This document shows, in pieces, positions 34,037-53,092 of a stretch of DNA of 53,092 nt. Made by a program: the position numbers and the translations under genes. Within the stretch, counting starts at the first letter, position 1. Each line of letters opens with the position of its first letter. The notes under the pieces were generated by a model, which had not been told where the DNA came from, searched no databases, and worked only from the letters and a program-made list of their open reading frames with translations. This stretch comes from Calditrichota bacterium (GTDB taxonomy: Bacteria > Calditrichota > Calditrichia > Calditrichales > J004): assembly GCA_003696775.1 (NCBI GenBank), contig RFFS01000061.1, forward strand, positions 1 to 53,092. Reading direction: 5' to 3'.

Positions 34037-34066
34037 TTGACATAATTTTTGGAAATACCGTATATT
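34037..34066 (+). promoter_or_regulatory. Sigma-70-like promoter for rpoN
   Basis: TTGACA (34037-34042), 18-bp spacer, TATATT (34061-34066), about 37 bp before the predicted rpoN ATG. Confidence 0.65.
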
Positions 34067-34102
34067 GCTTACATAAATCGTGCCAAAATTAACAGAGACC
34101 GT

Positions 34103-35569
34103 ATGAATAATATCTATCTCGGACAAAGCCTGCGCATGGAGCAGAAGTTGACACCCCAGCAAATCTTGCTGTCAACTTTGCTGCAACTTCCCCTGTTGAG
34201 TCTGGAACAGCGTATAAAAAGCGAGCTGGAACAAAATCCCGTTCTGGAAGAAGGCGATGATGAAGAGACCGCGGATGACGTGGTAAGCGAGGATCAGGCC
34301 GAGGAAAAGGAAATCCGTACCGAACTGGAAGAGCTGGATAAAAACAGCTCATCGGAGGAATATGACGTTAAGGAACTGGAAAAAGCTCAGGACGAAACTG
34401 AAATAGAAGACCTGTTTAAGGATGAAGACACCTTCGAAATTCGTATTCCCAAGGATAAAAATGTGGAAGAATACGAACGTCCGGAAATCAACCGTTCCAC
34501 CCTGACGGAGCATTTGCGGGAGCAACTGCATGAGCTGAACCTTTCCGAACAGGATTTGGAAATAGGTGAGGAACTGATCTGGTATATCCGGGATGACGGT
34601 TATCTTGATCCGCAACTGGACCTGAATGACCTTGCCGAAAAATACGAGACGACCCCGGCCCATGTGGAAGAGATTCTGTTCAAAATACAAAAGCTGGACC
34701 CCACGGGCGTCGGCGCGCGTAATTTACGGGAATGTTTACTGGCGCAATTGGAAGACCAGTCCCTGCCCGATCCGGTGGCCGTGGATATCATTAAAAATCA
34801 TTTTACGGATTTTAAGAATAAACGCTTCGATAAACTGCTCAACGCGTTGGAAATCGATAAGGAACGTCTGCAGGAAGCGATTGAGGAAATCATCCGTCTC
34901 AACCCCAAACCGGGTGAAGGGTTGTTTGACAGCCGCACCAATTACATCATTCCGGATTTTATCGTGGAAAAGGTGGATGGTAAATTTGTGGTTACTCTGA
35001 ACGACTGGAATATTCCTCCTTTGCGGATCAGCCCGACATACAAAAACATGTTGTTGGATAAAAAGAACACCGACAGTGAAACGCGCAATTATATCCGTAA
35101 AAAGGTGGAAAACGCCCGCTGGTTCATCAATTCCATACATCAACGCAAAATAACCATGTTAAAAGTGATGGAGGCCATCATTCAAAAACAGTATGATTTT
35201 TTTGAAAAAGGGCCGGATTATATCAAACCGTTGATCATGCGTGAAATCGCCGAGATGATCGAAATGGACATCTCGACGGTCAGCCGGGTGTGCAACGGCA
35301 AGTATGTGCAAACGGATTATGGTGTTTTTGAGTTGAAGTATTTCTTTAACGAACGCATCGAAAACGAAGACGGCGAGGAAATCGCCACGCCGCGCATCAA
35401 AAAACGGATTAAGGAAATTGTAGAAGCCGAGGATTCAAAAAAACCGTTAAGCGATGATAAAATATCGGCATTATTAAAAAAAGAAGGATTCCCCATCGCC
35501 CGTCGTACGGTTGCCAAATACCGGGAACAACTCGGTATCCCCGTGGCGCGCCTGCGTAGGGGGTTATAA
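34103..35569 (+). CDS. rpoN: RNA polymerase sigma-54 factor
   Basis: QSLRMEQKLTPQQILLSTLLQLPLLSLEQRIKSELEQNPVLEE; DISTVSRVCNGKYVQTDYGVFELKYFF; RPON box variant IARRTVAKYREQLGIPVARLRR. Confidence 0.96.
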   Translation: MNNIYLGQSLRMEQKLTPQQILLSTLLQLPLLSLEQRIKSELEQNPVLEEGDDEETADDVVSEDQAEEKEIRTELEELDKNSSSEEYDVKELEKAQDETEIEDLFKDEDTFEIRIPKDKNVEEYERPEINRSTLTEHLREQLHELNLSEQDLEIGEELIWYIRDDGYLDPQLDLNDLAEKYETTPAHVEEILFKIQKLDPTGVGARNLRECLLAQLEDQSLPDPVAVDIIKNHFTDFKNKRFDKLLNALEIDKERLQEAIEEIIRLNPKPGEGLFDSRTNYIIPDFIVEKVDGKFVVTLNDWNIPPLRISPTYKNMLLDKKNTDSETRNYIRKKVENARWFINSIHQRKITMLKVMEAIIQKQYDFFEKGPDYIKPLIMREIAEMIEMDISTVSRVCNGKYVQTDYGVFELKYFFNERIENEDGEEIATPRIKKRIKEIVEAEDSKKPLSDDKISALLKKEGFPIARRTVAKYREQLGIPVARLRRGL

Positions 35570-49618: not shown

Positions 49619-50380
49619 TCAATGCCCCCGGGACAGTTTGCTCATCAGGTCGTCCTGCGATAACTTTAATAATACCGTGCGTTCCTCATCATTTATCCGA
49701 TTCACGGCCGCGCGGGCTTTTTCTAAATTATAATCGGAATAAACCGGCCCGGGTGTCGTGGGTATGGTGTCCGGCAAGACACCCTCTTCCGGGAGACGGA
49801 CCCCGAGAAACCGGAAAATATCCTGTAACACCATTTGCGTGTTGTTCACAAGCTCTTCATGTAAGATGACTTTAAAACGATGCGGGCCATGCTTGTATGC
49901 TTCCAAAAAACCACCTATATAGGCGGCATATCGATTGACAAAATCCGCCAGTGATATGTTTCTTTTTTTATAGGATGTGTATTGATAGAGGATGGGTTTG
50001 TAAATAACAATGATCGGCGCGCTTACTTTTTTTAGGATATCTTTCAGAATAGGCATGTAAGCAGGTGTTTTATCCAGCAAAAAGGGTGTTTGCGCATCGA
50101 ATAAAGGGGAACTTTCCATGATGCGTGCATACATGGTGTCCCAGTCCGGTGCCGCGATGACCCGGGCCATTTTATCCGGTGTAACAGCCCAATGGCTGGG
50201 ATTTTTGGCCTTGAGCATCCATTCGTAAAAAGGATGGATTTGGGGAAAATCGGCAGGTGATGCACCCAGTAAGACACCACATTCAAATCCGCTGTTAATG
50301 TTGGGGTGACCGCGGATCAGATCGGCCAGCCAGGTGGTGCCGGAGTGTTCCATTCCGGTTACAATTCCAATGAGGGGCAT
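49619..50380 (-). CDS. Sulfotransferase family protein
   Basis: GIVTGMEHSGTTWLADLIRGHPNINSGFECG (PAPS-binding-like N-terminus). Confidence 0.85.
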   Translation of the reverse strand: MPLIGIVTGMEHSGTTWLADLIRGHPNINSGFECGVLLGASPADFPQIHPFYEWMLKAKNPSHWAVTPDKMARVIAAPDWDTMYARIMESSPLFDAQTPFLLDKTPAYMPILKDILKKVSAPIIVIYKPILYQYTSYKKRNISLADFVNRYAAYIGGFLEAYKHGPHRFKVILHEELVNNTQMVLQDIFRFLGVRLPEEGVLPDTIPTTPGPVYSDYNLEKARAAVNRINDEERTVLLKLSQDDLMSKLSRGH

Positions 50381-50450
50381 AAGTTCTCTGTATGTTTAAC
50401 CTGTACCGGCTTTCGGATGTTTTAAACAAGGGTTGAATAAGAGAGCGGGT

Positions 50451-50492
50451 AAAAAAACGGGGCATCAGGTTGTCCCCACGACCTAATGCCCC
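50451..50492 (-). terminator. Strong intrinsic terminator of the predicted small transcript
   Basis: Minus strand GGGGCATTAGGT-CGTGGGGACA-ACCTGATGCCCC (12 bp with one G.U pair), then GTTTTTTT. Confidence 0.87.
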
Positions 50493-50614
50493 TAACGTTG
50501 CATCATCTGTTCAGAGAAAAGAAGATGCACGCTTAAAAGAGTGTTTTCACGAATTTTTTTACAAAACTGTGGGAGCAGCCGGTCTTCCCAGTCTGTTCCT
50601 CTTTCGGGTTCCAT
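50492..50614 (-). CDS. Possible 40-aa small protein inside the candidate transcript
   Basis: ATG at 50614: MEPERGTDWEDRLLPQFCKKIRENTLLSVHLLFSEQMMQR*; no clear Shine-Dalgarno, so weak. Confidence 0.2.
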   Translation of the reverse strand: MEPERGTDWEDRLLPQFCKKIRENTLLSVHLLFSEQMMQR

Positions 50615-50648
50615 GAATGACCCGTTTTAAGATAGCACCCTATTAATA

Positions 50649-50663
50649 GCAAACGGTATGCCA
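50649..50663 (-). promoter_or_regulatory. Sigma-54 (-24/-12) promoter
   Basis: Minus strand TGGCAT-ACCGT-TTGC(T): GG and GC separated by exactly 10 nt; matches TGGCAC-N5-TTGCW with one mismatch. Confidence 0.72.
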
Positions 50664-50735
50664 GAAATGCATGAACAATCCTATCCTATCAATCCGGGAA
50701 TGTGGGGAGGCGGTTTGGCACGGGGATGCCCTTAT

Positions 50736-50773
50736 GTCGGGTGATATCACCGGGCATGGGTGATATGCCCGAC
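50736..50773. promoter_or_regulatory. Putative tandem enhancer sites (UAS) for the adjacent sigma-54 activator
   Basis: GTCGGGTGATATCACCGGGCATGGGTGATATGCCCGAC: perfect palindrome GGTGATATCACC (50740-50751) and near-copy GGTGATATGCCC (50759-50770), 19 bp apart, ~100-130 bp upstream of the predicted start site. Confidence 0.5.
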
Positions 50774-50810: not shown

Positions 50811-52154
50811 TCATCGATCGATGTTGTATTTTTCAAGACGGTAACGCAGCGTATCCCGGGTAAGATTGAGAAGTCGGGCGGCCCGGCTTTTATTGCCGCC
50901 GGCTTTTTCCAAAGCCTCGAGAAGCAGTTTCTTTTCCAGTTCCTGCAAATCGATCCCGTTTTCCGGCAGGAGGATGTGTTCCTTTGCCCGGGGCGGGTGG
51001 TGAAAAACCAGATCATCGGTTTCGATGCATCCCTCATCCTTAAAAATCATGGCGCGCTCGATGCAGTTGCTTAACTCGCGTATATTACCGGGCCACGTAT
51101 AGCGGGTGATTGCTTTATAGGCCCCGGAGGTAAAACCCTTAATGGATTTGTTGAAGCGGCGATTAAAAAAAGCGACAAAATGATCCGCTAATAAGATGAT
51201 ATCGTTATCCAGTTCGCGTAAAGCGGGTAAGCGAACAGGCACCACATTCAGCCGGTAAAACAAATCCTCGCGGAAGGTGCCGTTTTCCGTTAGTTTTTGC
51301 AAATCCTTGTTGCTGGCGGCAATCAGGCGTGTTTCGACGGTTTTTTCGGAATTGCTGCCCAGCGGGCGAAAACGGCGCGTTTCCAAAAACGTAAGCAGTT
51401 TGGTTTGCAAGGGAAGGGACAGCTCGCTGATTTCATCCAAAAAAAGAGTGCCGCCGTGGGCTTCTTCCACCAACCCTTTGCGGTCATGTACGGCGTGTGT
51501 ATATGCGCCTTTAACGGAACCGAATAATTCCGCTTCCAACAAATTTTCCGGCAGGGCGGCGCAATTGATTTCCACAAAGGGCGCCGTGCTGCCGTGGGCG
51601 GCCTGATGTATCACCCGTGCGATGGTGCTTTTGCCCGTCCCCGTTTCGCCCTGCAATAAAACGGATGTGGGCCGTACCTGCGCCAGTCGTGTGATCATCT
51701 GTTTCAGCTTTTGCATGGCCGGGCTTTCCCCGATAAGGTCGCCGCCGGCGATGTGTCCGCGGGTATCCAGCCGGGCTTGTAAAATGCGGATTTCATTTTT
51801 TTTCTGTTGAATTTCTTCGGTCTGCTTCGCCAGGGCGGTCACATCCCTGAATACGATCCAAAGTCCCGAAACAGGATGACCCGCCGGAAAAATCTGACAG
51901 GTGAAAGTGGCGTTTTGTTTGTTGATGAAAGGCAATTCAAAGGATGTTTTTCCTTTGAGTACCGCGCGCCACACGCTTTCCATGCCTAAAAGTTCCGGTA
52001 CGGCCTCGCACAATGGTTCGCCGCGTAAATCACTGTAACCGGGCGTAAAGTGCAAAAAGGAAGAGTGGTAGTCCCTTATAATGCCTTTTTTATCCGCGTA
52101 GGCAAAAGTAAACCTCAATAAATCGGGTAATTGATCACGCCAGGGCATTAGCAC
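50811..52154 (-). CDS. PAS-AAA+-Fis sigma-54-dependent activator
   Basis: N-terminal PAS-like domain; GETGTGKSTIARVIH; GSVKGAYTHAVHDRKG; DEISELSLPLQTKLLTFLE; C-terminal HTH EALEKAGGNKSRAARLLNLTRDTLRYRLEKYNI. Confidence 0.93.
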   Translation of the reverse strand: MLMPWRDQLPDLLRFTFAYADKKGIIRDYHSSFLHFTPGYSDLRGEPLCEAVPELLGMESVWRAVLKGKTSFELPFINKQNATFTCQIFPAGHPVSGLWIVFRDVTALAKQTEEIQQKKNEIRILQARLDTRGHIAGGDLIGESPAMQKLKQMITRLAQVRPTSVLLQGETGTGKSTIARVIHQAAHGSTAPFVEINCAALPENLLEAELFGSVKGAYTHAVHDRKGLVEEAHGGTLFLDEISELSLPLQTKLLTFLETRRFRPLGSNSEKTVETRLIAASNKDLQKLTENGTFREDLFYRLNVVPVRLPALRELDNDIILLADHFVAFFNRRFNKSIKGFTSGAYKAITRYTWPGNIRELSNCIERAMIFKDEGCIETDDLVFHHPPRAKEHILLPENGIDLQELEKKLLLEALEKAGGNKSRAARLLNLTRDTLRYRLEKYNIDR

Positions 52155-52669
52155 GTCTCTTTCCGCATGGCGGTTGTCAGATGTTGAAACACTTTTTCCA
52201 CATTTTGTCCGTTTTTTGCGCTGGTGGTGTAATAAGGCAACCCCAGGCCGCGGCTGATGCCCAAAAACGATTGATAGCCCGGATGCGCCGTGTTGACAAG
52301 GTCTGTTTTATTGCCCACCAAAATGCTTTCGGCGTTTGGCGCGGTTTTTTTTATGGCTTTTAACATCGAAGGGATCATCTCTATGGAGGCCAGACGGGTC
52401 AGGTCGGCAACCATTATGACACCGGCAGCGCCCGTATAATAATTGACGCTGACGGCATCCCGCGGATGAAAACCTTCCACATCCCATATCAGAAGTAAAA
52501 CACTCTGTCCGTTTTCGCATCTTATTTTTTTTTGAGATATGTTGACGCCGATGGTCGTCAGATAATCATCCGCGAACAAATTTTCCACATAGCGACGTAT
52601 CAGACTGGTTTTTCCCACACCGATATCGCCGGCCAGACATATCTTTTTTTTAATAAGAGACATAAACAC
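52148..52669 (-). CDS. Ras/Rab-like small GTPase
   Basis: G1 GDIGVGKTSL, G2 TIG, G3 WDVEGF, G4 NKTD, G5 TSAK; overlaps the activator start by 7 nt. Confidence 0.9.
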   Translation of the reverse strand: MFMSLIKKKICLAGDIGVGKTSLIRRYVENLFADDYLTTIGVNISQKKIRCENGQSVLLLIWDVEGFHPRDAVSVNYYTGAAGVIMVADLTRLASIEMIPSMLKAIKKTAPNAESILVGNKTDLVNTAHPGYQSFLGISRGLGLPYYTTSAKNGQNVEKVFQHLTTAMRKETC

Positions 52670-52671
52670 GC

Positions 52672-53092
52672 TTACCTGATTGTAAATGTGACCTTACGAT
52701 TTTTCCCCTTCCGGTTTTGGGGTAATACTCTGTATGATGTTTGAATGCTGTGTTCCGGGATGCCGTTACGGGTTAAATACTGTTTAACCGTACGGGCGCG
52801 CTCCTTGGCCAATTGTTCATTTGTCGTTTGTCGGCCGGAATTATCGGCATAACCATGAATATATAATGTGTCGTAGGAGTGCATGGCCAGATAGGTTTTG
52901 AGTCGATCCAGAATCCCCCGATTTACGGAATCCGGTGTGGAAGAAGCTGTCGGAAAATAAACCGTAAAAGCGTCAAGAGACCGCGGTTCCTTTGTTGAAG
53001 GCGCGACGGTTAAGGCATTCCACACCAACGGAAGACCGCTGTAACGGGCAAATAAACGCGCTGCTTTTTGCCGGAGAGCCTCGTCCGGCACC
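52672..53092 (-). CDS. OmpA C-terminal-like domain protein, N-terminus off the right edge
   Basis: YDTLYIHGYADNSGRQTTNEQLAKERARTVKQYLTRNGIPEHSIQTSY; reading frame open to the window edge; stop 2 nt before GTPase start. Confidence 0.85.
   Translation of the reverse strand, partial: VPDEALRQKAARLFARYSGLPLVWNALTVAPSTKEPRSLDAFTVYFPTASSTPDSVNRGILDRLKTYLAMHSYDTLYIHGYADNSGRQTTNEQLAKERARTVKQYLTRNGIPEHSIQTSYRVLPQNRKGKNRKVTFTIR

Follow-up and report, generated by a model that had tools for sequence, protein, structure and literature searches.

The minus-strand interval that follows the gene of a sigma-54 activator in a Calditrichota bacterium raises the question of whether it encodes a regulatory RNA, and of what kind, transcribed from its own sigma-54 promoter under control of the adjacent gene product, as stated in the original prediction. 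We analyzed this interval in the context of the window, that is, the whole 53,092-nt stretch of DNA available for the locus, and compared it with related genomes. Among named genomes, the closest are MAGs of the Calditrichota (Calditrichia): G001 and G003 belong to the same genus as the window's genome (G000, assembly 97% complete), and G004 to the same family. A search of a species collection for further family members returned mainly the same Calditrichota genomes and GTPase loci from other phyla. All coordinates previously given for the minus-strand elements were reproduced, and the reported presence of rpoN in the same window was corroborated by its Pfam domains. The features considered below are as follows.

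50758-50771, minus strand: palindrome 1, CGGGCATATCACCC, putative activator-binding site (UAS), an instance of the motif that a de novo search identified in 16 orthologous loci
50739-50752, minus strand: palindrome 2, CGGTGATATCACCC, putative activator-binding site (UAS), an instance of the same motif
50649-50663, minus strand: sigma-54 -24/-12 promoter, TGGCATACCGTTTGC, with GG-N10-GC spacing
50451-50637, minus strand: predicted noncoding transcript of about 187 nt, its start placed 12 nt after the -12 element
50451-50492, minus strand: intrinsic terminator made up of a stem of 12 bp, one 1x1 mismatch, the cap GU-GGGG-AC (GUGGGGAC) and T7
50472-50479, minus strand: invariant apical motif GUGGGGAC, found with a strong stem at no other locus
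50492-50614, minus strand: ORF of 40 codons, unlikely to be coding (lacks a Shine-Dalgarno sequence, a Pfam match and conservation)
50811-52154, minus strand: sigma-54 activator, proposed regulator of the unit (Pfam Sigma54_activat, 1.5e-64; HTH_8, 2.1e-15)
52148-52669, minus strand: Ras-superfamily (Rup-type) small GTPase of the activator operon (Pfam Ras, 7.8e-33)
52672-53091, minus strand: OmpA-domain protein of the activator operon, running off the window (Pfam OmpA, 2.7e-11)
34049-35569, plus strand: rpoN, encoding sigma-54 (Pfam Sigma54_DBD, 2.3e-59; CBD, 1e-57)
at 50380, minus strand: sulfotransferase, the next gene after the unit, downstream of the terminator

The pattern TGGCAY-N5-TTG(C/T/A) has a single match in the 53-kb window, at positions 50663-50649, where the -24/-12 element with its GG-N10-GC spacing had been predicted. 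Within 700 nt downstream of the activator gene, the same pattern occurs in 11 of 17 orthologous loci, as compared with 0.1 expected and a maximum of two in 300 shuffles. In the sequences that precede these promoters, a Gibbs search revealed the palindrome GGG(G/T)(C/G)A(A/T)AT(G/C)(A/C)CCC (LLR 177, versus 109±2 in 12 shuffled sets), which is present in 16 orthologous loci, mostly 72-127 bp upstream. Both palindromic sites noticed earlier in the window are instances of this motif, and the comparison supports the proposal of a sigma-54 promoter equipped with sites for the adjacent activator. A genome scan for a site upstream of such a promoter, which had been suggested as a check, identified only two places in G000, this unit and a DUF4332 gene whose Shine-Dalgarno sequence is good (contig C149, 1759-2336). 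The site and promoter also precede DUF4332 genes of G001, G003 and three other genomes (G033, G008 and G011), and because of this recurrence we regard the palindromes as sites of a regulon. Judged by these comparisons, the promoter, the upstream sites and the terminator motif described below are not a product of chance, and from their co-occurrence we infer that the neighbouring activator binds the palindromes. In sister families, the promoter precedes the gene of an outer-membrane OmpA protein, followed by MscS and often by MscL. Since the activator locus is followed there by genes for an OmpA beta-barrel, MscS and often MscL, the theme of the regulon is probably envelope or osmotic stress.

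The activator had been described as a PAS-AAA-Fis protein. Pfam recovers the AAA+ and Fis HTH domains of this architecture but not the third one, with no match to a PAS domain at E<=1e-3. Orthologues, 45-57% identical, were found in 17 of the 41 Calditrichia genomes, the window's own included, and the window's protein is only 57% identical to its orthologues from G001 and G003. Its sigma-54 contact motif reads GAYTHA, as compared with the canonical GAFTGA; at the same position, the G001 and G003 proteins have GAYTNA. At the orthologous loci, the activator gene closes a conserved operon that encodes, in this order, a coiled-coil protein, an OmpA-domain protein, a Ras-like GTPase and the activator. 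The G3 region of the GTPase is WDVEG (pattern WDxEG) and lacks the catalytic Gln, and Q117 in the N-terminal part of the activator is invariant in 16 of 16 proteins. Group 1 Rup modules consist of a coiled-coil protein, an OmpA membrane protein, a Rup GTPase that lacks the catalytic Gln, and an output protein in which a Gln N-terminal to the output domain is invariant (Wuichet and Sogaard-Andersen 2014, PMC4316618). The gene set, the Gln-less GTPase and the invariant Gln of the output protein are all present here. The difference lies in the output: those named for Group 1 are c-di-GMP enzymes and histidine kinases, and a sigma-54 activator in this role is absent from the text of PMC4316618. 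By gene order, G3 region and invariant Gln, with the coiled coil judged by eye from the protein sequence, the activator seems to serve as the output protein of an operon for envelope signalling by OmpA and Rup GTPase, of the Group 1 Rup type.

A structured noncoding RNA behind the promoter is predicted only in the family of the window's genome, namely in G000, G001 and G003, and partly in G004. In G001 and G003, the promoter is followed by a leader of about 155 nt with a terminator, by the gene of an orphan histidine kinase (HisKA and HATPase, without a sensor domain by Pfam), and by a second terminator. The order in G004 is promoter, leader, kinase and end terminator, its leader hairpin being weaker and having a GAGGGGGAC loop. 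No orthologue of the kinase was found in G000, where the best match has 28% identity, as compared with 76% between the G001 and G003 orthologues; with such a match, relocation of the kinase gene elsewhere in this genome was rejected. Comparison of G001 with G003 shows purifying selection on the kinase (dN/dS about 0.09, with dS near saturation), which must therefore be expressed, presumably via read-through of the leader terminator. Read-through in these two genomes must occur unless there is an unseen promoter, and this favours, as far as the sequences go, a leader role of the RNA in the relatives.

The 12-bp stem and U7 tract of the terminator were confirmed at 50492-50451. An alignment of five hairpins (that of G000, the leader and end hairpins of G003, the leader hairpin of G001 and the end hairpin of G004) demonstrated a common apical G-U-GGGG-A-C above the mismatch, carried by differing stem sequences. 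In this alignment 98% of cells are paired, and compensatory changes occur at 6 of 11 pairs; the number of compensatory cells, 10 of 55, was matched by none of 500 shuffles, and the cap is invariant. The covariation score is 0.60, versus 0.28±0.06 for shuffled alignments and at most 0.20 when the alignment is slid. The covariation check proposed for the homologous regions, as run on the terminator hairpin of the relatives, thus agrees with a conserved, covarying terminator that ends the noncoding stretch. In 41 genomes of the class, the corresponding covariance model has no matches with E<1e-8 outside this locus; those ranking next, at 6e-4, resemble ordinary terminators, one of them, in G024, having a similar TTGGGGACAA loop. 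On a strong stem, GUGGGGAC occurs only at this locus in G000, G001 (two hairpins), G003 (two) and G004 (one). Because the covariance-model matches are restricted in this way, the cap is a feature of this locus and not of terminators at large, as observed in four genomes of one family. The possibility that GUGGGGAC is a generic terminator loop of these genomes was rejected, its other matches having no stems. The hairpins before and after the kinase gene may be related by descent.

The predicted 187-nt RNA folds with -65.1 kcal/mol (z = -4.4). With simpler Markov shuffles, z is -2.8 for the whole RNA and -1.7 without the terminator, and folds deprived of the terminator have z of about -1 to -2.2. 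The surplus of folding energy comes largely from the terminator, and therefore the other hairpins are weakly better than chance: of the predicted four hairpins plus terminator, the terminator stands and the remaining hairpins are at that lower level. The RNA body of G000 has no alignment with G001 or G003. Blocks of the leader are conserved between the latter two only, where they are 90-100% identical, as compared with 50-62% at third codon positions of nearby genes. This excess of identity indicates selection on the G001/G003 leader, at the level of RNA or DNA.

The only coding candidate in the interval, an ATG-initiated ORF of 40 codons (50614-50492), covers most of it, and as originally stated has no Shine-Dalgarno sequence. 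We consider it very unlikely that the unit encodes the corresponding 40-residue protein. Besides the extent of the ORF, such a protein could be argued for by 22 nt that are identical, and in frame (CKKIREN), between positions 50565-50544 of the minus strand and a response-regulator gene of the same genome (contig C196, 34310-34331; E=6e-4). However, a Pfam search with a cutoff of E = 10 gave nothing for the ORF, the stop codon lies right against the stem of the terminator, and the leaders of the relatives contain no counterpart, their frames being different and mostly containing stops. The 22-nt match is unexplained and possibly due to chance; no second copy of the unit was found in G000, this match to the response-regulator gene being the only one. 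The unit has its own predicted promoter and terminator and no conserved ORF, as expected of a bacterial small RNA gene.

The situation in the relatives suggests another reading, in which the 5' untranslated region of the next gene (the sulfotransferase in the window, the kinase in the relatives) contains the terminator as a conditional stop, read-through being set by a protein that recognises the cap. In agreement with it, the sigma-54 promoter of G001, G003 and, in a weaker form, G004 is separated from the start codon of the kinase gene by a hairpin about 30 nt or less from that codon, and the stretch from the terminator to the sulfotransferase gene of the window yielded no sigma-70-like promoter. 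On the other hand, there is no conservation of the gene that comes next: the sulfotransferase gene, which directly follows the unit in the window, is located several genes away in G003 and has no such leader there. The terminator of G000 is strong (12 bp, T7), and in G001 and G003 the kinase transcript has the same cap at its end, with no same-strand gene directly after it. No competing antiterminator pairing was found; the 5' arm of the terminator is free, being less paired than in shuffles, and thus a dedicated 3' end fits better than a classical attenuator. On these grounds a read-through leader is a rather unlikely explanation for the window. The G003 genes between the unit and the sulfotransferase (locus L033, 5176-10832) encode the kinase, an adenylate-cyclase-like protein and a large outer-membrane receptor-like protein; none of them is present at the corresponding place in the window (50380-50451).

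The same difference in gene content, several genes between the unit and the sulfotransferase, would be expected if the kinase gene had been deleted in this species and its promoter, leader and terminator had been left without a function. The absence of a kinase orthologue from G000 and an RNA body that cannot be aligned with the relatives agree with such a remnant. The two UAS, the promoter and the capped terminator stem are nevertheless all intact in a genome whose activator has 57% identity to the G001/G003 orthologues, and we find decay a still less probable account of the locus than a conditional leader. In order of likelihood, a stand-alone small RNA precedes the read-through leader, and the decaying remnant follows.

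On balance, we favour the explanation that the interval is a sigma-54 unit under control of the adjacent activator, probably producing a short structured RNA that most likely acts in trans and independently of Hfq. This explanation is weakened by an RNA body that has no alignment with G001 or G003, by the z of -1.7 for the fold lacking the terminator, by the read-through that the kinase of these two relatives implies, by the small set of four genomes with the capped terminator, and by the departure of the activator from GAFTGA. An envelope signal would be passed by the OmpA protein and the GTPase to the activator, which would bind the two palindromes, identified by comparison like the promoter itself, and switch on the sigma-54 polymerase. 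An RNA of about 187 nt would then be made and would stop at the capped terminator, whose GUGGGGAC hairpin is a likely contact for a protein or a partner RNA. The unit would be related to the leader RNA that precedes the orphan histidine kinase gene in the relatives. With no kinase orthologue in the window's genome and the RNA on its own there, this RNA is most likely trans-acting and Hfq-independent. Hfq was found in none of 10 Calditrichia genomes by a search with working controls, and contact of a protein with the capped hairpin is therefore likelier than pairing of the Hfq type. CsrA is encoded in 9 of the 10 genomes; few GGA were seen by eye in the predicted loops, the cap apart, and the RNA is probably not a sponge of the CsrB type. 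More speculatively, and with a rather small chance of being correct in full, the Rup module could drive, via sigma-54, a stand-alone Hfq-free RNA whose GUGGGGAC-capped hairpin is presented to a dedicated RNA-binding protein, the cap, as a recognition element of a new kind, marking the leaders and the 3' ends of one regulon.

Most of the known sigma-54-dependent regulatory RNAs are proteobacterial, and the more familiar among them generally need Hfq or its partners. If our explanation is true, such an arrangement extends to the Calditrichota, with Hfq not found in the genomes tested, and becomes linked to a Ras-type GTPase module of bacteria for which an output of this form had not been known. 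The module would then have a testable regulon composed of the RNA/kinase unit and the DUF4332 genes, with the OmpA barrel, MscS and MscL in the sister families.

In Vibrio, the Qrr RNAs are transcribed from sigma-54 promoters, and the activator gene luxO is located beside an RNA gene. The locus analyzed here is similar in that an RNA with a sigma-54 promoter adjoins the gene of an enhancer-binding protein. This likeness is all that speaks for a Qrr-type base-pairing RNA dependent on Hfq, a possibility that we consider hardly credible. Vibrio has several Hfq-dependent copies, whereas here there is a single copy, Hfq was not found, and the Rfam search that had been proposed gave no family at gathering or permissive thresholds, including no Qrr match at E<=10; a BjrC68 match at E=6.9 was dismissed as meaningless. 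The Qrr/LuxO-like logic of the original prediction does not hold as a mechanism. In Pseudomonas, crcZ adjoins cbrB. CrcZ is a sigma-54-dependent noncoding RNA activated by the enhancer-binding protein CbrB (PMC6296734), and it resembles our unit in having a sigma-54-type promoter for a noncoding RNA with an enhancer-binding protein as the proposed activator. CrcZ differs in titrating Crc/Hfq, as opposed to a locus with no Hfq found and no Rfam match.

The glmY-qseEGF locus of Enterobacteriaceae, linked to envelope homeostasis, has a sigma-54 promoter with UAS, the enhancer-binding protein (QseF/GlrR) being encoded at the same locus, and the GlmY RNA gene is located directly before a histidine kinase gene, with which it is co-transcribed in Proteus mirabilis (PMC6075780, PMC8745638). 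The order of promoter, RNA and kinase in G001 and G003 is the same. There are several differences: the activator gene is located here upstream of the RNA, and its product is not a response regulator by Pfam; the kinase is missing from the window's genome; the palindromes are unlike TGT-N12-ACA; and the RNA has no sequence or Rfam match to GlmY/GlmZ. Nevertheless, the promoter, RNA and terminator directly before the kinase gene in the relatives place the locus nearer to glmY-qseEGF than to qrr-luxO, and, by analogy of organization, glmY-qseEGF is the closest known arrangement, with CbrB/CrcZ the second.
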